DNA of 21,187 nt from a virus, in the IMG/VR virus record IMGVR_UViG_3300037606_000284, positions 1-21,187 of that record, one strand, 5' to 3'. The position numbers and the translations under genes are program-made. Below, in pieces: positions 4,350 to 21,178 of this stretch (its first letter is position 1; every line of letters starts with the position of its first letter). The notes beneath the pieces were generated by a model, which saw only the letters and a list, made by a program, of their open reading frames with translations, was not told where the DNA came from and did no database searches.

Positions 4350-7004
4350 TTATCTATTTTGGCGGAAGAATGAGCGTTTTTTATCGGGCGGTCTGAAGAA
4401 TTCTAGTTTTCTTTGGGGGCTTACTTTCTCTTGGTTTGTATTGATTTTTGGGATGTTTAGCTCTTTGGGTATCCAAAACGATGCACTTCGTAAATAGTGT
4501 GCGTATGCTACTGAAGCCATTGCGCTAGTGATTCTATCCACGTTCAAATTCTCTGACCAATTTATAATTTCTTCAAGTAAGCCCACATCATCAACTTTTT
4601 GAACTCCCTTCAAAAGCTTTGTTGTTCCATCTTCTTGCTCCACTTCAAAAGTTTCATTACAATAATCTACAAAAAAGTCAAATAAGAATTTTTTAGTTGT
4701 GCTAGGGTTCCAACCTGTTTTTCTTTTGTTATTATTGGGTATATTAAAACTAGATGAAAAATCCAAACTTGGTGCTAAGTACTTTTCTGATAAATGTCTT
4801 ATATCAAGAAAGTCCTTTATACCGTAGTTAAAGTTTTCCCCAAAAGCAGTCCTATCTAAATTATAAGCTTCCATGAGTAATTCCCACTTTTCCCATACAG
4901 TTTTATGTTTATCTGGACGGAAGGAAATTGAGGCTACTACTTTTTCTGAAAAGGGGTCTCCTAAAACTTTATTTTTAAATACGTAAAAGGAAGATACTGA
5001 TGATGTTTCAGAGTCGTCCGATGCATAGTCATCAAATCCCGCTGTATACATTCCATAGGGGGGTTTTACTTCGGGAATATCTTCAAATATTAAAAATGGT
5101 GCATCCACTATTCCACCTCTGTGGGGGAAATCTGCCAATGGTTTATTAGATAGTGTACTTTGTATTTTACCTTGTGAGTCTCTATACAGGTCTCTACGTC
5201 TATCCCACAGTCCTGTTTCTATTAAATAAGCTTTATGTGCTTTTGCTTCGTTTACAGGGAAGCGGTTTCTTGAACCCGATTGAGTTATTTCTGAGGGTTT
5301 TATTGGTGCATATATAGTTGTCTTGTGTAATTTAATTTTATCCTTTGACGCAGCCTCTCTTTCGGCTTCTATTCTTTCCTTTGCTACTTTCCAATCAGTT
5401 ACTTTTATTTTTATTTTCCTCAATGCTATGCTTTCGGGTTTACCTAAATAATCCGCCAAAGTGCTCTCTATCTTGGGCATATCAACTCTACACTGTCCAG
5501 GAATAAAAGCACCAAAAGGTTTTAATTTATCCTCCTCCCAAGTAATATATTCAGGAGAAACGCCTCTCTCTAATATATCCCATTGCATAGGCATTATACT
5601 ATATGTTTCAGGGTCTCCTAAAGCTTTTACTCCATCTACGGATAATTCATCTGTACCTGCCGTACCACTTAATATTACTCTTGCCCTTAAACTACCATCT
5701 GTGCCTACTAATGCGGGCACTAAAGATTCTATAGCCTCAAGAAACAAACTTTTCATGGCTTCATCTAAGACTACTATTCCTGTCGGAGTAAAACCCGCAA
5801 ATACTTCCTTATTATTCCCAGAGTCTGTGTTTATAATATGTAATGTAGATAAAAGTATAGTTTTATTCCCCTTTGTTTTAATACCAAGCTCTACTTTTTT
5901 ACTCCAATCATTCGTTACATTGTATACTTTGAATGCAGGGTTTTTATTTAAATTATCTACTTTAAAAGACTTTGAAAGTTGCTCTAAATCTTTTGCGGAA
6001 GCTCCTGCACATAATAGAGTCTCTTCACCTAAAGTTGCTGCATGTGATAGCATACTAGCCTCTGTAGTCGTTTTAGCTACTCGTCGAGAGCATGCTAAGA
6101 AAAGCATTTTATACTCACTGTCCTCTAACCTATCTCTATTTTCAAAAATCATATAGTCACTATCTCTCAATGGTGGATTCATTTTGACATCCTGAGAAAA
6201 ATACTTTTGTTTAGTCTCATTCCAAAGATTAACAGGTATGGGTGTTATAAATATATTTATGTGATAATAAGCCCACCCTGAAATATATATGCCATCTATA
6301 TTTATCCCACTTTTTATTTTTTTAAACTCATCAACATAAAATTGTAAACACTCCTTACTTTGTTCCCAATAATGGAGGTTTATGTCCCATTTAGGGACAT
6401 TATTCATATAGATTAACATCTCGTTATTTGGAGGGGTAATAAAGTCTATTTCTTTATAATCTAATTCTTTTTGTATAACTTCTGAATATTCTGGTAATTC
6501 TATAAGTACTCTGTGCATTGTTAACGGTGCTTTTGCATCCGAAAGAAATTCTATTGTGTTTAAATTTTCATCTCCAAACCTAATATCCAAAGATTCCACA
6601 GCGTCATCTATTGCATTATATTTTTTTTGTAAAGTGTTATGAAAGTCCATCTCCTCTAACTTCAAATCGTTTGTAGCTATTTCATCTAAAGAGAAACCAT
6701 TAATATAAGTATCAATCCTATCCATGTGGGTAGTGATTACTCTATTAACATGTGTTACATACTTTTTAAATTGTGGTAATCTGTGATGTTGGTTTGCTTT
6801 TTTGGCGAAAAATTTTAATCGGTCTATAAGAATAAGTACAGACTGGTCTTGAACCATAAACTCATCTTTCTTTGGGTTTACTACTTTTCCATTTTCTATA
6901 CGTATTTCTCCCAATAAAGTCCAGTCATTCTCCCTTATATATTTCTCTGTTTTTAAAAGGGAGGGGGTGTATTTCTGTATATATATATCTACGAATTCTG
7001 CCAT
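4350..7004 (-). CDS. terL: Terminase large subunit (packaging ATPase and nuclease)
   Basis: An 884-residue terminase motor protein: it drives DNA into the procapsid with ATP and cuts the concatemer. The ATPase centre shows a Walker-A-like motif CSRRVAKTT (305-313, Lys311), Walker B VVLDEA (411-416, Asp414/Glu415) and a coupling motif ILSGTAG (444-450). The nuclease domain (RNase H fold) follows with acidic residues at GFDDY (Asp658), GENFNYG (Glu723) and NVDRITSA (Asp823). The N-terminal ~290 residues precede the ATPase and are longer than in most terminases (usually 450-650 in total), as in crAss-like and other large-terminase phages. It starts at an ATG 2 nt after the stop of the upstream homing endonuclease and is followed by the portal gene. 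No small terminase subunit is recognised nearby; one of the unknown small genes upstream may be it. Confidence 0.93.
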   Translation of the reverse strand: MAEFVDIYIQKYTPSLLKTEKYIRENDWTLLGEIRIENGKVVNPKKDEFMVQDQSVLILIDRLKFFAKKANQHHRLPQFKKYVTHVNRVITTHMDRIDTYINGFSLDEIATNDLKLEEMDFHNTLQKKYNAIDDAVESLDIRFGDENLNTIEFLSDAKAPLTMHRVLIELPEYSEVIQKELDYKEIDFITPPNNEMLIYMNNVPKWDINLHYWEQSKECLQFYVDEFKKIKSGINIDGIYISGWAYYHINIFITPIPVNLWNETKQKYFSQDVKMNPPLRDSDYMIFENRDRLEDSEYKMLFLACSRRVAKTTTEASMLSHAATLGEETLLCAGASAKDLEQLSKSFKVDNLNKNPAFKVYNVTNDWSKKVELGIKTKGNKTILLSTLHIINTDSGNNKEVFAGFTPTGIVVLDEAMKSLFLEAIESLVPALVGTDGSLRARVILSGTAGTDELSVDGVKALGDPETYSIMPMQWDILERGVSPEYITWEEDKLKPFGAFIPGQCRVDMPKIESTLADYLGKPESIALRKIKIKVTDWKVAKERIEAEREAASKDKIKLHKTTIYAPIKPSEITQSGSRNRFPVNEAKAHKAYLIETGLWDRRRDLYRDSQGKIQSTLSNKPLADFPHRGGIVDAPFLIFEDIPEVKPPYGMYTAGFDDYASDDSETSSVSSFYVFKNKVLGDPFSEKVVASISFRPDKHKTVWEKWELLMEAYNLDRTAFGENFNYGIKDFLDIRHLSEKYLAPSLDFSSSFNIPNNNKRKTGWNPSTTKKFLFDFFVDYCNETFEVEQEDGTTKLLKGVQKVDDVGLLEEIINWSENLNVDRITSAMASVAYAHYLRSASFWIPKELNIPKINTNQEKVSPQRKLEFFRPPDKKRSFFRQNR

Positions 7005-7006
7005 TA

Positions 7007-7948
7007 TTATATATTTATTATCTCTTCAATTGGTAAATTCATAGTATAGCACTCTGTTCTACCTGCGAAATTTATTTTAGGTATGTGTTTATAATTTCTG
7101 TACTTCTTGTGTAATTCTATCTCTAAATCGTATATAAACCCCGCTTCTTCTATATACTCAAATAAGATTTTATACTTGTAGGGCATCAAAGAAGGTCTAA
7201 ATCTATTTTTTATTGTTTGAAAAGTCTTACCAATTTTGTAAAAGACTTCCTTACCTTTCTTACACTCTATTAAATATAAAATTGTATCTCTACCCTTTGC
7301 CGTATGCACATACCCTTTTTTATTGTAAATACTTCCACCACCTAGGGTACACAACGGACAACCCTGCCCTCTAGCGTAACTTTCTATACTTAACTTGAAT
7401 TCGTGTTGATGTTCCTTACATATTATAGTTACCTTGTTATCTTTTCCGTTGCATTTTAATTTTGAGTAGTCGTGTTTATCTCCATGAATTTTATAAGTTA
7501 CCTCTTTAAATATATCCTCGTTATTGTGCTTAGTTTGTGCTTTTTCACACACGTTGCACCCATTCCCTCTTAAATGTAAATCGGGTCTTTCTTCTAACTC
7601 TTTACCACACTTATTACAAGTTAACTTCACAAGTGTTTTATTATTTGAATACTCTACTTTACTATAGTCATATTTGTCTCCGTATATGTCGATAGAATCT
7701 TGTATAAACTTATCCCGCCCTTTACCTGCAAATTTTATTTGACGTTCCCTCCCACATTTAGGACAAGATGCTGTTTTGTGAATTTTAGGGGTTTGCCAAA
7801 AGTATTCTTGATGTTTGTTACAGAATATTTCAACTTTAGTTGTACTATTTACATGAACCACTTTGTCGTACCCATAAGCATCGCCATGTTTTTCAACCGA
7901 CCTTTTAATGAATTCCTCTTTTGTTATTGGTTGATTATTTTTTACCAT
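7007..7948 (-). CDS. GIY-YIG homing-type endonuclease with three zinc-finger repeats
   Basis: A 313-residue protein. The first 200 residues are three repeats of about 65 residues, each with a GDxYxYxK(V/L) core and paired Cys motifs (C62PKC65; C111NKC114 with C131NVC134; C177 with C197PLC200). These are treble-clef-like DNA-binding units of the kind found before phage homing nucleases. The C-terminal domain (~222-300) is GIY-YIG-like: LYLIE (225-229), FYKIGKT (236-242), Arg249 and Glu276 in DLEIEL. It sits between a terminator (7975-7991) and the terminase start, 2 nt from the latter, which is typical of a mobile gene beside a conserved essential gene. It shares its C-terminal layout with the 377-residue protein at 17284. 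It likely cuts a specific site in sister genomes to spread itself; the exact target is not visible. Confidence 0.85.
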   Translation of the reverse strand: MVKNNQPITKEEFIKRSVEKHGDAYGYDKVVHVNSTTKVEIFCNKHQEYFWQTPKIHKTASCPKCGRERQIKFAGKGRDKFIQDSIDIYGDKYDYSKVEYSNNKTLVKLTCNKCGKELEERPDLHLRGNGCNVCEKAQTKHNNEDIFKEVTYKIHGDKHDYSKLKCNGKDNKVTIICKEHQHEFKLSIESYARGQGCPLCTLGGGSIYNKKGYVHTAKGRDTILYLIECKKGKEVFYKIGKTFQTIKNRFRPSLMPYKYKILFEYIEEAGFIYDLEIELHKKYRNYKHIPKINFAGRTECYTMNLPIEEIINI

Positions 7949-12048: not shown

Positions 12049-12115
12049 TACTTTTAACAAAAGTTTAACTTATTACAAACAGTTTCACAAATTAGGAAGT
12101 TACAATTAATTGTTC

Positions 12116-12123
12116 TATCTTTG
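12116..12123 (+). promoter_or_regulatory. -7 box TATCTTTG for the first right-arm gene
   Basis: A perfect TATCTTTG lies 19 nt before the ATG at 12143. The -33 region at the expected distance reads TTAGG and is only a weak match, so the promoter may need an activator. Together with the left-arm promoter it makes a divergent control region at 12018-12123; no gene is seen in the 143 nt between the two arms. Confidence 0.55.
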
Positions 12124-12142
12124 TAGCCTAAAGAAAGAAGAA

Positions 12143-12412
12143 ATGTATAATGAGCAAAAATTAGGAATTTCAGAATACTCCGAAGTTTTTTATGACCGTC
12201 TATCTACCGTGGTATGTAACCGTGAATATGTAGAACAAAATAAAGACTTTTATGAACAAGTTATCTGGAAAACTTTTGAGAGGTACAACAATTCAAAAAC
12301 GGAATCATATTCAATCAATCAAATTGTTACAATTTTCGAGATAATACTTGATAGTATGCTAAAGTTTAAGCCATCAAATGAGTTACCAGAGGATTTAATA
12401 AATATAGTATAA
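12143..12412 (+). CDS. Unknown 89-residue protein, first gene of the right arm
   Basis: The start is the ATG of MYNEQKLGIS, because an upstream TTG frame would cover the -7 box. The protein is acidic, helical and Tyr-rich (SEYSEVFYDRL, KDFYEQVIWKTFERY) with a hydrophobic helix (INQIVTIFEIILDSML, ~55-70). No family is recognised. As the first gene behind the divergent promoter it is probably expressed early; a host-takeover or regulatory function is possible but only inferred from position. It is followed by about 580 nt without a protein gene. Confidence 0.7.
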   Translation: MYNEQKLGISEYSEVFYDRLSTVVCNREYVEQNKDFYEQVIWKTFERYNNSKTESYSINQIVTIFEIILDSMLKFKPSNELPEDLINIV

Positions 12413-12531: not shown

Positions 12532-12602
12532 TGATTTATGGTGTAATGGTAACACAACTGTTTTTGGTGCAGTCTTTCTAGGTTCGAGTCCTAGTAAATC
12601 AA
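12532..12602 (+). tRNA. tRNA-Gln (anticodon TTG)
   Basis: A full cloverleaf can be drawn. The acceptor stem TGATTTA/TAAATCA has 7 perfect pairs, the D stem is GTGT/ACAC with loop AATGGTA, and the anticodon stem is ACTGT/GCAGT with loop TTTTGGT (anticodon TTG, 12564-12566). A 4-nt variable loop leads to the T stem CTAGG/CCTAG with loop TTCGAGT. No CCA is encoded. It would read CAA glutamine codons, which are common in the Gln-rich portal and other genes here. Confidence 0.93.
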
Positions 12603-12760
12603 CAATAATAAATAGGAAAATTTATTATTTCGTTCCTTTACCTTAGGTTTGGGACTTACAAAGGCTTTGATGTGTTGTGCCCGAAACAACCTTTGATTTT
12701 AAAATAACTGTGTTATGTAGGGATAAGAGACTATTTAATGCATAAAATACATAAATAAGT
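12603..12760 (+). other. Non-coding stretch between tRNA and the nested hairpins
   Basis: No gene is seen on either strand. Two hairpins are visible: GTTCC/GGGAC with inner ACC/GGT around TTA (about 12629-12656), and AAAGG/CCTTT enclosing GTTG/CAAC (about 12659-12696). The rest is AT-rich. This stretch and its neighbours (12413-12990) could hold a non-coding RNA or a replication origin beside the polymerase-like gene, but no iterons were found by eye. Confidence 0.3.
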
Positions 12761-12990: not shown

Positions 12991-14166
12991 ATGAATATAT
13001 ATAATAACATATTACTTAATAATAGAATAGATATACTATTGAAGGAATTTGGGTTAAACTTAAAATTCAAGTCGCATATATTATACATAATATTTCATAT
13101 ACGTACTTACCCATTTAAAGATAGACATTATGAAGATGGAGACTTTGTTCCTGTAAAAATTGAGTATTTGAGAAGTTTAATTTCCGCACGGTATACAAAA
13201 CCCCTTTTAGAAGCAATGGTTAAATCAGGTATTTTAGAATGTGATAATATTTATATTGTAGGTAAAAAATCAAGAGGCTACAGAATAACAGAAAACATTA
13301 GGAAAGTTAAGTTCTATTTACAACTAATGGAAGATTCGGAATTAGCTGAAAAGATTAAAAATAAACTTGACGAAACTGTTGATAAAGTTTTAAGTAGAAA
13401 AGACGGTTATTCATATATTACAAAATGCATGCTTAATTTGGATATGGATTACAAAAAAGCAAATAAATATTTAAATTCTAAAAATGTTCCAGCCAATATA
13501 AAAAAGAAGTTGCAAATGATGGTTGATATATTTCACGATAAGTTTGCAACAGTTGATGATAAAGGAAACAGATTACATAACAATCTAACTAACATCGCAA
13601 CTCCTTTAAGAGGTACTTTGAACTACAATGGGCATAAGTTAGTCCAATGTGATTTAAAGAACTCACAGCCGTTATTATTTAGAATTCTTTTAAATAAGTA
13701 CCACTTACCACAAGAAGAATTAGACAGATATTTGAATGTAGTTTGTAATATTGGTTTTTATGAATTTTTTGCTGGAAAGTTAGGAGTTAAACTAACCCAA
13801 AAAAATAGAAGTGATTTCAAAAAGAAAATATTTGGTGGTGTTCTTTTTGATAGAAACAGAAATAAACTCTCAAAGTATGAAAAAGTTTTTGAAGCGGAAT
13901 TTCCCTTAATATTTCATTGTATGAGGGATATGAAAAAGGACGATTATAAAAATATTCCTATATTATTACAGAAATTAGAGAGCAGTTACATTTTTACTTG
14001 CGTAGACAAATTAAGAAAAGAAAATAAAGATATTGAGCTACTAACTATTCACGATTCAGTTTGTTGTATAGAGGGTAAAGAAGAAATTGTATATAAAGTT
14101 ATGATGGAGGAATTTTATAATATGTTTAATATTTTGCCGAAAATAAAAATAGAAAAGTTTGGATAA
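12991..14166 (+). CDS. Minimal family-A-polymerase-like protein with N-terminal winged helix
   Basis: A 391-residue protein with the order of motifs of a family A DNA polymerase palm. RLHNNLTNIATPLR (194-207) leads to motif A CDLKNSQPLLFR (220-231: Asp221, Gln226, Arg231). A motif-B-like segment RSDFKKKIFGG follows (273-283: Lys277-279, Phe281, Gly282), then motif C LLTIHDSV (350-357: His354, Asp355). Family A enzymes normally have D-S-Q-I-E-L-R and H-D-E; here Ser replaces Glu in motif C and the Glu of motif A is changed. There is no exonuclease domain, and at 391 residues it is about half the usual size. Residues ~50-110 look like a winged helix. It may be a replicative, primer-making or repair polymerase, or an inactive relative. 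It starts at ATG after 580 nt of structured non-coding DNA. Confidence 0.7.
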   Translation: MNIYNNILLNNRIDILLKEFGLNLKFKSHILYIIFHIRTYPFKDRHYEDGDFVPVKIEYLRSLISARYTKPLLEAMVKSGILECDNIYIVGKKSRGYRITENIRKVKFYLQLMEDSELAEKIKNKLDETVDKVLSRKDGYSYITKCMLNLDMDYKKANKYLNSKNVPANIKKKLQMMVDIFHDKFATVDDKGNRLHNNLTNIATPLRGTLNYNGHKLVQCDLKNSQPLLFRILLNKYHLPQEELDRYLNVVCNIGFYEFFAGKLGVKLTQKNRSDFKKKIFGGVLFDRNRNKLSKYEKVFEAEFPLIFHCMRDMKKDDYKNIPILLQKLESSYIFTCVDKLRKENKDIELLTIHDSVCCIEGKEEIVYKVMMEEFYNMFNILPKIKIEKFG

Positions 14167-14950: not shown

Positions 14951-15241
14951 ATGGAATACATAAGAGAAAATTGGAAAGATTACAGCACAAGACTTAAAAG
15001 CTACGGCTATACAGAAGAAGAGTTAAACACCTTACGACCAATAAGAGAAGACGCAGAACAAATACCAAATGAAATGTTTGACGAGCTTGTTAGACAAGGA
15101 GTGATTAAGTGTACAAGAAAATTAAAGAAGAAGAGAAGCTTGTATGTTTTGGAAGGAGATAATCGTGTGTACTACCTTGAACATTGGAATAAGAGAGTAG
15201 AATGGTGTGGTTATTTTAAAGATGAAGAAGATGGAGAATAA
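14951..15241 (+). CDS. Unknown 96-residue protein
   Basis: Charged, with an acidic N-terminal helix (TEEELNTLRPIREDAEQ), a basic middle (CTRKLKKKRSLYVLEG) and an aromatic C-terminal part with Trp, Tyr and Cys. The pattern of a helix followed by a basic strand pair could be a small winged-helix domain (FDELVRQGVIKC), but this is weak. It overlaps the next gene by 11 nt. The function is unknown. Confidence 0.7.
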   Translation: MEYIRENWKDYSTRLKSYGYTEEELNTLRPIREDAEQIPNEMFDELVRQGVIKCTRKLKKKRSLYVLEGDNRVYYLEHWNKRVEWCGYFKDEEDGE

Positions 15242-15847: not shown

Positions 15848-15901
15848 ATGAATAAAATTAGAGACTTAATAGAGCGATACAAATATGGACATTCTTTATA
15901 A
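15848..15901 (+). pseudogene. Broken small gene interrupted by the HNH/AP2 gene
   Basis: The frame reads MNKIRDLIERYKYGHSL and stops. The beginning is typical of a small phage coiled-coil gene and is close in pattern to MIDKIQSLIQEQK at 16637. The HNH/AP2 start codon (15885) lies inside it, so insertion of the endonuclease probably cut the original frame after about 12 codons. No 3' part in frame is seen downstream. Confidence 0.4.
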
Positions 15902-16640
15902 TTATAATAGTAGATTAGGTGAAAAAACTATTACAAACGAAGGTTATGAAATTGAAATAATTGAATGGTTTGGTGTAAGAAATTGTACAATTAAGTTTGA
16001 AAATGGGGTTATTTTATATAATATAAAATATCAAGGTTTTAAAAAGAAAAACATAGTTAACCCTTATCACCCATCATTATATGGTGTTGGATATCTAGGT
16101 ATTGGTAAACATACTTCCAAATCAACACATAATAATATGAACTATTATAAAATTTGGAGTTCTATGATACAAAGAACAAATAGTGAAAAAAGGGCTAAGG
16201 TATCTCCAACTTATTCTAAATGTTCGGTAGCAGAAGAGTGGAAATGTTTTCAAATATTTGGAGATTGGTTTGTAAAATATCATAAAAAAGATTTTCATTT
16301 AGACAAAGATATTTTAATAAAAGGAAATAAAGTATACTCCCCTGAAACTTGTTGTTTTGTACCAAGAGAGATTAATAATCAATTCAAATCATATTCTGAT
16401 AAATATGGAGAATTACCAAAAGGGGTTAGCTTCTATAAAATAACTAAAAGATTTACAACTCAAATAAGTTTGTATGGTAAAAGAGTAGCCTTGGGTTATT
16501 TTAACACACCTGATGAAGCATTTAAAGTATATAAAAATACTAAAGAAAAACACCTTAAGGAATTAGCAAATAAGTGGAAGGACGACATTGAATATAATGT
16601 TTATATAACAATATTAAATTACACAATAACAAAAAAATGA
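15885..16640 (+). CDS. HNH homing-type endonuclease with AP2 domain
   Basis: A 251-residue protein. Residues ~88-165 hold the HNH-type core usual for phage AP2-linked nucleases: YYKIWSSMIQRT, CSVAEEW, then HLDKDILIKGNKVYSPETCCFVPREINN (His138, Asn148, Cys156). Residues ~177-230 form an AP2-type DNA-binding domain (LPKGVSFYK, GKRVALGYF, DEAFKVYK, ELANKW). The first ~80 residues carry a GVGYLGIG motif before the nuclease. Homing endonucleases of this type make a site-specific break and move by repair. It begins inside a broken small gene and its stop overlaps the next start (ATGA-like), so it is neatly placed in the operon. The exact site is unknown. Confidence 0.85.
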   Translation: MDILYNYNSRLGEKTITNEGYEIEIIEWFGVRNCTIKFENGVILYNIKYQGFKKKNIVNPYHPSLYGVGYLGIGKHTSKSTHNNMNYYKIWSSMIQRTNSEKRAKVSPTYSKCSVAEEWKCFQIFGDWFVKYHKKDFHLDKDILIKGNKVYSPETCCFVPREINNQFKSYSDKYGELPKGVSFYKITKRFTTQISLYGKRVALGYFNTPDEAFKVYKNTKEKHLKELANKWKDDIEYNVYITILNYTITKK

Positions 16641-17283: not shown

Positions 17284-18417
17284 ATGGTACATACACACGA
17301 AACATTCATAGAGAAATTACTAACAGTCCACGAAGGATATATTCGAGGTGAGTTTGCAGTGTATGGTCGTTTTATAAGCATTAAGAAAAAACTACTAATA
17401 AAAGACAAGTATGGCTTTCATAAGGTGTTGCCTGGTGATTTATTAAATATGAAGTGTAAAAATATGACAGTAAAATCTGCAATATTTAAAACCAATTACA
17501 TTAAAGAATACTTACATCAAAATATAAAAGCATATTTTAAAAGGGATTTTAGACTAATTTCTGATTATACATTAGGTAAGCAACCTGCGATATTTAAAGA
17601 TAACCACGGTAATTCTTTTTCAATGAGTGTGTCAAATGTATTAACGGGTAACAAGCCTTCTATTAAATCTGCTATAAATAAAGATGAATTTATAATTAAA
17701 AAACTTTACCGACAAAATAGAGGTTTTAGAAACGGAGAGTTTGATTACATATCTCATTTTAATAAAAATCAAACAATAATATTAGTTTTGTCCGATTTAT
17801 TTGGAACTTACAATATGGATTCATCATCCGCTTACAATGGTTCAAAACCTACAATAGAGGTAGCAACGGACAAGAGTAAAAATCTAGTCAAACGATTAGA
17901 ACAAAATGGAGGAGATTATGATTACTCTAAAGTTGTATACTCTAAAATGAATGACAAACTAATTATAGGATGTAAATTACACGGCGATTATAAACAGCGT
18001 TCATATAATCATATTAGAGGGGAAGGTTGCGAGAGGTGCGGAAGAGTATCAACCACAGAAAAATTATCAGACACCCCAACAGGTTGGTCGCACGGTTCTT
18101 GGATTAGTTGGGCGGAAAAATCTAAAAACTTTGATTCTTTCAAATGTTATATTTTAGAGATAAAGTCTGTTGATAATAAAGAGTCTTTTTTTAAAGTGGG
18201 TAGAACATACACAACTATTAAAAACAGATTTAAGTATATTGATAAGTTTTACTATATTGATAAAGTTATAAAAGTATTTGAGAGTGATGATGCTAAGTAT
18301 ATAATAGATAAGGAATTAGAACTATTAAAAAATAATAAGATTTACAAATACAAACCTCTGAAAAACTTTGGGGGTTCGCAAGAATGTTTTACTAAAGTAG
18401 AGTATGAAGAAATATAA
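17284..18417 (+). CDS. GIY-YIG homing-type endonuclease with four DNA-binding repeats
   Basis: A 377-residue protein. The first ~260 residues are four tandem repeats of 60-70 residues. Repeats 1-3 end in related segments (NMTVKSAIFK ~60-69; KPSIKSAINK ~124-133; KPTIEVATDK ~188-197). Repeat 4 has the GDYDYSKVVY core and keeps the zinc Cys (C230, C249xxC252), which repeats 1-3 have lost. The GIY-YIG-like nuclease follows: CYILEIK (288-294), FFKVGRTYTTIKNRF (302-316, Arg315), Glu344 in DKELEL, and a FGGSQECF end. The same C-terminal order is seen in the protein at 7007. It overlaps the NinG-like gene by 14 nt. The role is site-specific cleavage for gene mobility. Confidence 0.83.
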   Translation: MVHTHETFIEKLLTVHEGYIRGEFAVYGRFISIKKKLLIKDKYGFHKVLPGDLLNMKCKNMTVKSAIFKTNYIKEYLHQNIKAYFKRDFRLISDYTLGKQPAIFKDNHGNSFSMSVSNVLTGNKPSIKSAINKDEFIIKKLYRQNRGFRNGEFDYISHFNKNQTIILVLSDLFGTYNMDSSSAYNGSKPTIEVATDKSKNLVKRLEQNGGDYDYSKVVYSKMNDKLIIGCKLHGDYKQRSYNHIRGEGCERCGRVSTTEKLSDTPTGWSHGSWISWAEKSKNFDSFKCYILEIKSVDNKESFFKVGRTYTTIKNRFKYIDKFYYIDKVIKVFESDDAKYIIDKELELLKNNKIYKYKPLKNFGGSQECFTKVEYEEI

Positions 18418-18847
18418 AAAACTAAATTGGGATGAAGATGATTTAGAGTCTTTACCTAATGGAGATTTAAAAAAATTAGGAGATTATTGGATGCGGGTAT
18501 ATGTTTTAGAAAATGCAGAAAAAAGAAACGGTAAATATTATTGCCCATTAAAAAAACAATGGTATACAGAAGATAAAATGCATTTATGTCACTACATTGA
18601 CCGTGGAATCATAAAGCACAGATTTGATTTAGATAATGTGCATTTAATCTCTTCGGTGTCTAATACCTTTGAAGCACAAATTCCCGCAGTAGGATTTAAA
18701 TCAAAACATCATAAAGAGTACGAAGAATATTTAATTTTAAAAATAGGTAAAAAAAAGTTTAATAATCTCTTGGATTCTAAAAATAATTTAACTATCTTTA
18801 CACAAGCTGATTATATCAGAGTAATTAAACAATTTAAAAATGAGTGA
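18404..18847 (+). CDS. ninG: NinG-like recombination nuclease
   Basis: A 147-residue protein with the layout of lambda NinG (Rap), a small nuclease that cuts branched DNA such as Holliday junctions and D-loops. YYCPLKKQWY (Cys47) is followed by HLCHYIDRGIIKHRFDLDNVHL (Cys62, His63, and the R..Fd..NVh pattern), then a helix (HHKEYEEYLILKIG) and KFNNLLDSKN at the C-terminus. The second Cys pair that follows in NinG (CxxCN) is missing here: the segment reads ISSVSNTFE, so zinc binding may differ. The gene sits two genes before RecA/UvsX, which supports a recombination role. It overlaps the upstream homing gene by 14 nt and the next gene by 8 nt. Confidence 0.72.
   Translation: MKKYKKLNWDEDDLESLPNGDLKKLGDYWMRVYVLENAEKRNGKYYCPLKKQWYTEDKMHLCHYIDRGIIKHRFDLDNVHLISSVSNTFEAQIPAVGFKSKHHKEYEEYLILKIGKKKFNNLLDSKNNLTIFTQADYIRVIKQFKNE
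18770..18800 (+). promoter_or_regulatory. Internal promoter-like element TTG-N20-TATCTTTA in the NinG-like gene
   Basis: TTG (18770-18772), a 20-nt spacer and TATCTTTA (18793-18800) repeat the element at 15733-15763. It lies inside the 3' end of the NinG-like gene, 40 nt before the next start, and could boost expression of the 137-residue gene and of the recombinase. Confidence 0.45.
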
Positions 18848-19255: not shown

Positions 19256-20260
19256 ATGGCAAAAGAGAAAAAAGACGCTTTAGAAGGGGTAATTGAGAAG
19301 TTAGATTTTTTATACGCAAAAGGAGCAATAGTAAACTTAGGGACTAATCCAAGATACACTCAAAAAGTTTTAACAGGAAGACCTAGTATAGATTATGTTA
19401 CTGATGGAGGATTACCAAAAGGGAGACTAATATTAATTGCAGGAGAGCCTAGTGCAGGTAAAAGTTCGCTCACAATTCAGTTAGCTGAAAAATTTGGAGA
19501 TAAAATACTTTACGCAGATACGGAGGCGACATTGACATCTGATTATCTGGTAGATTTAGGTGCAGACCCTTCAAAATTTAGTCATTTTATACCTGAAACT
19601 ACTGAAAGTATGTGCGATATTATTAGACAACAAATTCCAAACTTTAATGTGGTAATTGTAGATTCCATAAATAATAGTGCCAGTGGTGAACAATTACAAA
19701 AAACGGCAGGGGAGAAAACTATGGCAAACCGAGCAAATGTTTTGTCTAGTCAACTTCCAATTTTAATAGGGTTAGCTAATCAATATAATACAACTATAAT
19801 TATTTTATCCCAAGTGAGGGATAATATGAATAAAGCTAATAAATACAGCCCCGATACAGTAGTACCAGGAGGTAATAGTTTACATCACAACAGCTCAATG
19901 ACTTTAGAACTTTTTAAATCTTCAAAGAAAGAGAAAGAAGAAAAAGGAACTTTAGGAAATAAAGATAAAGTTGTTGAGGGTAATATGGTGAGAATTAAAT
20001 GTACTAAAAATAAAGTAGGTAAGGTAAACAGAGAGGTTTCCGTTGAGTTTACTTATGGACTAGGGTACACTATTGAAGCTGACATTGCATCGTCCGCAAA
20101 ACGATTAGGTATTTTAGAAATGAAAGGTAGTTGGGTAACTTATAAAGGGAGTACTCTCGTACAAGGGATTGATAATTTGGTTCCTATGTTATTTGACAAC
20201 CCTGAACTATTAGAAGAATTACGATTAGCGGTATTAGAAAAAACTACAAAAGAAAACTAA
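19256..20260 (+). CDS. uvsX: RecA/UvsX-like recombinase
   Basis: A 334-residue strand-exchange ATPase. It shows Walker A GEPSAGKSS (63-71), the catalytic Glu in YADTEATL (Glu90), Walker B VVIVDS (132-137), the LSQVRDN motif (184-190, Gln186) and the L2-type loop VPGGNSLHHN (203-212). The C-terminus (~265-334) is a short helical domain, as in phage UvsX-type recombinases, which are slightly shorter than bacterial RecA (about 350). It coats single-stranded DNA and pairs it with a duplex, for repair, for recombination-dependent replication and for the spread of homing genes. It follows the NinG-like and 137-residue genes in an operon-like run, with an A-rich leader. Confidence 0.9.
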   Translation: MAKEKKDALEGVIEKLDFLYAKGAIVNLGTNPRYTQKVLTGRPSIDYVTDGGLPKGRLILIAGEPSAGKSSLTIQLAEKFGDKILYADTEATLTSDYLVDLGADPSKFSHFIPETTESMCDIIRQQIPNFNVVIVDSINNSASGEQLQKTAGEKTMANRANVLSSQLPILIGLANQYNTTIIILSQVRDNMNKANKYSPDTVVPGGNSLHHNSSMTLELFKSSKKEKEEKGTLGNKDKVVEGNMVRIKCTKNKVGKVNREVSVEFTYGLGYTIEADIASSAKRLGILEMKGSWVTYKGSTLVQGIDNLVPMLFDNPELLEELRLAVLEKTTKEN

Positions 20261-20583: not shown

Positions 20584-20763
20584 ATGAAAATAAATTATAG
20601 AACGTACTGCGGACTAGCAGGAGACTTACAAGAACTATTAATAGCAGAGACAGAGAATAATAAACTATCTGTTTTGTACACAAGGGTTGGTATTTTTAAA
20701 AAATTTAATTACTGGCTCGCAAAAAAGAAACTTACAAATATTTTAAATAAGTATGGCTATTAA
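20584..20763 (+). CDS. Unknown basic 59-residue protein
   Basis: The ATG at MKINYRTYCGLAGDLQELL is the chosen start; an earlier TTG-type frame would overlap the previous gene and run through the inverted repeat. The protein is short, with an Ala/Leu/Glu helix in the middle and a very basic C-terminus (KKFNYWLAKKKLTNILNKYG). It overlaps the next gene by 11 nt. No family is recognised. Confidence 0.6.
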   Translation: MKINYRTYCGLAGDLQELLIAETENNKLSVLYTRVGIFKKFNYWLAKKKLTNILNKYGY

Positions 20764-21178
20764 GAAAGAAGCAGTAGAATGGACTTATGGTTCGCAAGTT
20801 ATAGATAACATTTTAAAAACACCTGAAGGTTCCCTAGCATTCATTTACAAAATATCTCTACTTGATGGGACAGGTCGTTATTATTATGGTCGTAAAACTA
20901 TGTGGAAACCACGCTATACGAGCGGTAAAAATAAAGGAATAAGTAAGGGGTCATATGTTTGGCGAACTTACTGTGGCTCATCAAAGGAACTCACAGCATT
21001 AATCAAGGATAATACGCCTTACAAAAAAGAAATACTAAAATTCTGTTTTTCAAAAGCGGAGACAACTTATGAGGAAACTAAACAAATACTTTGTGGGGGA
21101 GGTTTGACAGACCCTCTATGTTTGAATTTTTGGATAAAAAGTTTGATTTACTCTAAACATTTAAAACCAAATAGTTAA
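20753..21178 (+). CDS. GIY-YIG-like nuclease (Seg-like, 141 residues)
   Basis: The N-terminal half contains FIYKI (30-34) and GRYYYGRKTMWK (41-52), matching the two strands of a GIY-YIG nuclease. A WRTYCGSSKELTALI segment (70-84) and EILKFCFSKAETTYEETK (93-110, with Glu107/Glu108) follow, the pattern of small phage nucleases of the Seg-like kind. The C-terminus is hydrophobic and may be a DNA-contact or dimer part. It starts 11 nt before the upstream stop. It is the third GIY-YIG-type gene in the window. Homing or repair-type cutting is likely; the substrate is unknown. Confidence 0.72.
   Translation: MAIKKEAVEWTYGSQVIDNILKTPEGSLAFIYKISLLDGTGRYYYGRKTMWKPRYTSGKNKGISKGSYVWRTYCGSSKELTALIKDNTPYKKEILKFCFSKAETTYEETKQILCGGGLTDPLCLNFWIKSLIYSKHLKPNS

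Follow-up and report, generated by a model that had tools for sequence, protein, structure and literature searches.

A polymerase gene within a co-directional run

The window, by which we mean the whole 21,187-nucleotide stretch of viral DNA analysed here, carries a compact family-A-type (TV-Pol-like) polymerase gene at positions 12991–14166 of the plus strand, an assignment drawn from the ORF and its translation, homologues, an AlphaFold2 model and fold matches. The product is 391 amino acids long, followed by a stop codon; the length given in an earlier note on this DNA is exact. That note also had the gene sitting alone behind 580 nt of structured non-coding DNA, and neither part of this description held. 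The gene is part of a co-directional run, in which it follows a small plus-strand ORF (12110–12412; start at 12110 or 12152) whose product is 41–42% identical to that of positions 6813–7088 in a related viral contig, L157, and a plus-strand tRNA-Gln gene (anticodon TTG, 12532–12603); Cellulophaga phage phi17:2 has an array of tRNA genes in the equivalent position. The supposed non-coding DNA is mostly the tRNA-Gln region and has no significant extra structure: the 387 nt from the tRNA to the start codon fold weakly better than shuffles (z −1.6, with 6/100 shuffles equally good). In this upstream DNA no RNA family but the tRNA reaches its threshold. Promoter and terminator scans gave counts at chance level. 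With this z-score, short repeats and a tRNA as the sole RNA family, a structured origin in the upstream DNA is not supported.

Downstream of the polymerase gene, a 96-aa protein (14951–15241, plus strand) is 49% identical to proteins of L157 and a second contig, L160, that lie beyond the gene occupying the equivalent slot. The same rightward run includes a RecA-family recombinase gene (19256–20260, plus strand; Pfam RecA, 1.8e-28; PHROG UvsX-like, 1.1e-52). Homing-endonuclease-like genes are located at 7007–7948, 15885–16640, 18404–18847 and 20753–21178, and by type comprise a PHROG endonuclease, an AP2-containing, a NinG/HNH-like and a SegE-type GIY-YIG protein. Adjoining the portal gene, positions 175–1296 encode a conserved protein of unassigned function that matches phrog_34402 (1.9e-23) and a phi17:2 gene.

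The window terminase is 38% identical (over 95%) to those of Cellulophaga phages phi17:2 and phi4:1, and the order portal, terminase, RecA is common to the window and phi17:2. On these sequence matches, the window belongs to a phage related to the ~145-kb phi17:2. As phi17:2 encodes a complete, full-size PolA of 808 aa and L157 also has a PolA match, the window's phage probably encodes a full-size PolA elsewhere, as seen in its sibling.

Compared with a 64%-identical homologue (L001), the polymerase ORF differs at 103, 65 and 182 first, second and third codon positions, with pN of 0.24 and pS of 0.77 at saturated synonymous sites; the frame is therefore protein-coding and under purifying selection. 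A chance ORF is ruled out by this codon-position pattern together with 136 viral and 55 bacterial homologues.

Predicted fold of the 391-residue protein

Searches with the single protein against Pfam, PHROGs, NCBIfam and PDB sequences returned nothing significant; Pfam DNA_pol_A did not match it at E values up to 10, nor any of 51 family members at 0.1. The AlphaFold2 model (pLDDT 90.6, pTM 0.86) places a predicted family-A polymerase palm and fingers at residues ~131–391. The best Foldseek matches were all family-A polymerases (E 9e-6), extending from residue ~131 to the C-terminus, and VIA-align matched 246 residues to Pol theta with a Z of 15.2 and an rmsd of 3.1 Å; Klenow, Taq and T7 DNA polymerase were likewise among the structural matches. 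The closest viral models include a ‘Putative DNA polymerase I’ protein, a Zamilon virophage replication protein and a barbavirus polymerase. Identity as a reverse transcriptase was not seen, the structural matches listed being family-A polymerases. In hhalign profile–profile comparison, the family aligned with a PolA set at E 7.9e-5, with O-helix and motif C both falling in register, whereas three unrelated proteins scored 0.55–0.61. The corresponding comparison with T7 RNA polymerase was weak (E 0.074), being made with a single sequence and less sensitive than the PolA-set test. The family-A-like palm suspected in the earlier note is thus borne out by structure prediction and by profile comparison alike.

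Ahead of the palm, the model shows two further regions. Residues ~20–112 (13048–13326, plus strand) form a predicted winged helix with helices at 24–38, 57–63 and 66–78 and strands 82–85 and 96–99 around the wing. Modelled by itself, this domain is again a winged helix, and a second look at its structural neighbours returned many winged helices (ORC2, Fur, ArsR, MarR) at a best Z of 7–8, a generic likeness; the DNA-binding-like N-terminus proposed from sequence is in keeping with both. Residues ~116–180 (13336–13530, plus strand) are helical in the model (116–134, 139–147, 154–161 and 168–180) and, from their position ahead of the palm, may constitute the thumb. With only a winged helix, a helical region and palm and fingers in the model, and with Pfam and NCBIfam silent, no exonuclease domain is present, which agrees with the absence noted earlier.

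Conserved motifs and the active site

Sequence conservation within the family is concentrated at the predicted active site. All 56 non-redundant viral members have the motifs D221-x-x-N-S-Q-P227 and T352-x-H-D355-S356, and in 88 members (56 viral and 32 bacterial) R194, D221, N224–P227, Y257, K277, E330 and H354–S356 are all 100% conserved, so that the two aspartates singled out in the earlier note are kept in every aligned homologue. Its motifs are all present in the order given: a conserved RxHxNxT...R block at residues 193–207 (R194, H196, N198, T200, R207; 13567–13611), motif A (D221-L-K-N-S-Q-P227; 13651–13671), the fingers O-helix (13807–13833) and motif C (T352-I-H-D355-S356; 14044–14058), all on the plus strand. 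The exception is the register of motif B, which had been read as FKKKIFGG; hhalign against the PolA set places it at R273xxxK277xxxF281, equivalent to R754/K758/F762 of E. coli Pol I. While K277 is 100% conserved, the residue four positions before it is Arg, or often Lys or another residue in phage members. The fold matches to family A, the PolA profile match and the invariant D221 and D355 all support reading the protein as a polymerase.

Two active site substitutions set the family apart. Pol I Glu710 is the residue that guards against ribonucleotides, and by a gapless count from the catalytic D221 the invariant Q226 would occupy this ribose-gate position. The Gln suggests a relaxed sugar choice, with dNTPs, rNTPs or both as candidate substrates. 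The Ser in place of Glu in motif C, already remarked upon, is found in all 88 members; the resulting HDS, which aligns with Pol I HDE and T7 RNA polymerase HDS, is probably T7-RNA-polymerase-like.

Distribution of the family

The first relatives, found by tblastn, were six huge-phage records of 595–735 kb, and a profile scan extended the family to 136 viral contigs, of which some exceed 500 kb. Bacterial genomes contributed 55 loci, mostly from Bacteroidota, Ignavibacteriota, Planctomycetota and Verrucomicrobiota; an evenly drawn set of 296 Bacteroidota genomes included 13 with the family, among them the genome that had served as centre. This patchy bacterial occurrence is a mobile-element-like spread, and a tyrosine integrase lies within about 7 kb of 27 of 51 bacterial copies. 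The family has no matching Pfam or NCBIfam model and is uncurated there. In the tree, the window protein groups with L001 (100/100) and falls near bacterial copies rather than within the large phage clade, the deeper branches being weak.

Each of 19 huge-phage records holds a single family copy, accompanied by PolB in 13 and PolC in three. The PolB matches in LR756501, LR756502, LR745206, LR756504 and several IMG/VR contigs lie in two separate ~480–500 aa frames, far apart in one genome, which gives the impression of a PolB divided between two genes. Four records encode another compact protein of family-A type directly downstream of the family gene (L010:6011-7300, L011:6041-7330, L002:7020-8306, L012:5997-7217), with a 4-nt overlap in three of the four. 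It possesses a DYxxxE-type motif A, YG, HDG and a degenerate exonuclease-like N-terminus, and the L010 protein matches Pfam DNA_pol_A at 2.8e-18.

Comparison with described polymerases

The family resembles the TV-Pol proteins of Iyer, Abhiman and Aravind (2008, PMC2579912), which are minimal thumb-palm-fingers cores of ~400–600 aa without an exonuclease, occur in stand-alone forms, have two conserved Asp, an RxxxK in the fingers and a conserved Arg ahead of the palm, and are found in Bacteroidetes, Planctomycetes, Verrucomicrobia, integrase-bearing mobile elements and viruses. The family likewise has a helical unit before the palm, R194 in all members, RxxxK (K277 100%) and integrases near 27/51 bacterial copies; R194 is probably the absolutely conserved Arg of the TV-Pol pre-palm hairpin. 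Among the differences, the 391-aa protein lacks a fused D5-like helicase, its N-terminal domain is a winged helix where that of TV-Pol is described as all-helical (PMC2579912), and the family here resides in tailed phages with records of up to 735 kb, not in small elements. Neither a D5-like helicase nor an integrase/resolvase was seen in the window itself. From motif A to RxxxK, no Asp is invariant across the 88 members; the TV-Pol paper describes a conserved Asp in the fingers. Against MAP_030 of Ma-LMM01, which we take to be the TV-Pol candidate of that phage, the family profile gave no significant match, aligning at E 0.03 over the N-terminal region only, with the polymerase core undetected; the Zamilon virophage protein is matched by fold.

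Similarity extends to divPolA2 (Yutin et al. 2024, PMC11348598; AUR84708), which shares tailed-phage hosts, a length of ~400–430 aa, an N-terminal globular domain and an exonuclease-free palm and fingers, and is likewise extra to a regular polymerase. The profile alignment with AUR84708 runs in register for 169 columns (E 8.7e-4). However, divPolA2 has DFKAFE in motif A and FDE in motif C rather than DxxNSQP and HDS, and up to three paralogues rather than a single copy per record; by sequence it would be at most a sister family.

CCPol-MP, encoded by the mobile element SCCmec, is likewise an A-family polymerase without an exonuclease and is a demonstrated primase-polymerase (Bebel et al. 2020, PMC7581432). 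Unlike the 391-aa protein, which has Gln at the Glu710 position, a fused winged helix and no identified MP, CCPol keeps the equivalents of Glu710 and Phe762 and needs the MP subunit for priming (PMC7581432). Pol I and T7 DNA polymerase share with the 391-aa protein the palm and fingers fold, the catalytic Asp pair and the O-helix R/K/F, but the latter is half their size, without 3'-5' or 5'-3' exonuclease, and has HDS for HDE, Gln for Glu710 and an added winged helix.

Taken together, sequence and model assign the 391-aa protein as a minimal family-A polymerase, TV-Pol-like and related to divPolA2. The ‘separate lineage of phage polymerase’ of the earlier note stands insofar as the family is separate within the family-A/T7-RNAP superfamily; the kind, however, had already been described (minimal TV-Pol/divPolA2-type). 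It differs from the nearest described relatives in having an invariant Gln where Pol I has Glu710, and in the HDS of motif C.

Exchange of unrelated genes at the locus

Four viral contigs of 141–147 kb (L157–L160) encode terminases that are 42–86% identical to that of the window. No TV-Pol-like gene was present in the region read of these four relatives, nor was a copy found in phi17:2. The slot that holds the TV-Pol-like gene in the window is filled in L157 and L160 (L157:5681-6619, L160:5543-6448) by a protein of 312 and 301 aa, respectively, 54% identical between the two and without a Pfam match, which we read as helix-turn-helix-like. In L158 and L159 (L158:5022-6239, L159:4751-5962) it is filled by a BT4734-like_N + PriCT_1 protein. 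BT4734-like proteins form a family of AEP primases marked by the motif hhhDhD (PMC5862659), to which LMYIDID in L158 and FLYLDID in L159 correspond.

The flanks tie these slots together. The left anchor (the small ORF before the tRNA) is shared by the window and L157, and the right anchor (the 96-aa protein) by the window, L157 and L160, while the left flank is common to L158, L159 and L160 at 82–94% identity. The window flanks therefore match L157 and L160 directly, and the AEP carriers L158 and L159 connect via L160; these are different, not identical, phages. Moreover, the polymerase gene of L001 and the AEP gene of L158 each lie just before a helicase gene with one small ORF between, and in L001 helicase and RecA are downstream of the polymerase. 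Sibling ~145-kb phages differ in which of several unrelated proteins they encode at one position of the replication module. It was from evidence of this type, unrelated genes exchanged in place, that Iyer et al. predicted the primase-polymerase function of TV-Pol (PMC2579912).

A candidate primase-polymerase

The 391-aa protein may be a primer-making or initiating (prim-pol-like) polymerase beside a full-size replicative PolA, a reading that we favour at roughly even confidence because relatives encode an AEP primase at this locus and because CCPol-MP provides a precedent for an A-family primase-polymerase (PMC7581432). The enzyme would be an active, exonuclease-free, minimal DNA-templated member of the family-A/T7-RNAP superfamily: its winged helix would bring it to phage DNA, where the thumb-palm-fingers core would synthesize a short primer strand or lengthen one. 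Catalytic activity, primer synthesis and sequence-specific DNA binding are all presumed here, and the winged helix could serve a purpose other than priming. The suggestion of an origin-bound primer enzyme gains indirect support from the slot shared with an AEP primase or HTH-like protein in the four relatives. No SSB-like partner such as MP was identified. Several huge phages with the family gene already encode a Toprim primase, so that priming is no obvious gap there and the notion that such phages lack a primase is not supported.

An unlikely elaboration of this reading joins initiator and primase in one polypeptide. The winged helix would read the origin, the relaxed-gate core (Gln for Glu710) would start strands de novo without a partner, and the gene would stand in for the AEP gene at its position; one subset of huge phages would pair the enzyme with the second compact family-A polymerase, from the overlapping or abutting gene.

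Next after the priming or initiating reading, and possible if doubtful, ranks an accessory repair or recombination DNA polymerase that extends existing 3' ends (gap filling, or D-loops with RecA and helicase) and never primes. The RecA-family gene in the same run, the helicase and RecA genes downstream in L001, the additional replicative PolA, PolB or PolC of these phages and the proposal of divPolA2 as a repair polymerase (PMC11348598) are all consistent with such a role, but the AEP primase encoded at this position in relatives, the fused DNA-binding-type winged helix and the missing exonuclease argue against it. Quite unlikely is a small single-subunit RNA polymerase that serves early transcription or primes with RNA, its winged helix reading the promoter: DNA polymerases rank first in profile and fold matches, the T7 RNA polymerase comparison is weak in its less sensitive, single-sequence form, and the large N-terminal domain of that enzyme is absent, even though HDS and the Gln at the ribose gate point towards it and divPolA2 has been discussed as a possible RNA polymerase too (PMC11348598).

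It is very unlikely that the phage captured the gene from a mobile element with an integrase, for which it served as replication enzyme, and makes no use of it in its own cycle. Such a capture would account for the grouping of the window protein with bacterial copies (at modest branch support), the integrases beside many of these and the absence of a copy from phi17:2 and the matching region of L157; yet the window has no integrase or transposase, the L001 copy sits beside phage helicase and RecA genes, and the gene is under purifying selection. A catalytically dead palm that acts solely through DNA binding, as initiator or regulator, is extremely improbable given that every member keeps both metal-binding aspartates, R194 and the Lys of the O-helix, although the L157/L160 slot protein without any polymerase motif could be cited for it.

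A combined primase and polymerase role for minimal family-A polymerases was predicted in 2008 (PMC2579912), and CCPol alone among them had been tested by 2020 (according to PMC7581432). As the slot in these ~145-kb phages is filled by a real primase family in relatives, the primase-polymerase prediction is directly testable. Phages that rank among the largest known carry a single copy of the family gene per record, and the family's invariant ribose-gate Gln and RNA-polymerase-like motif C would bear on the divergence of DNA and RNA polymerases within the superfamily.
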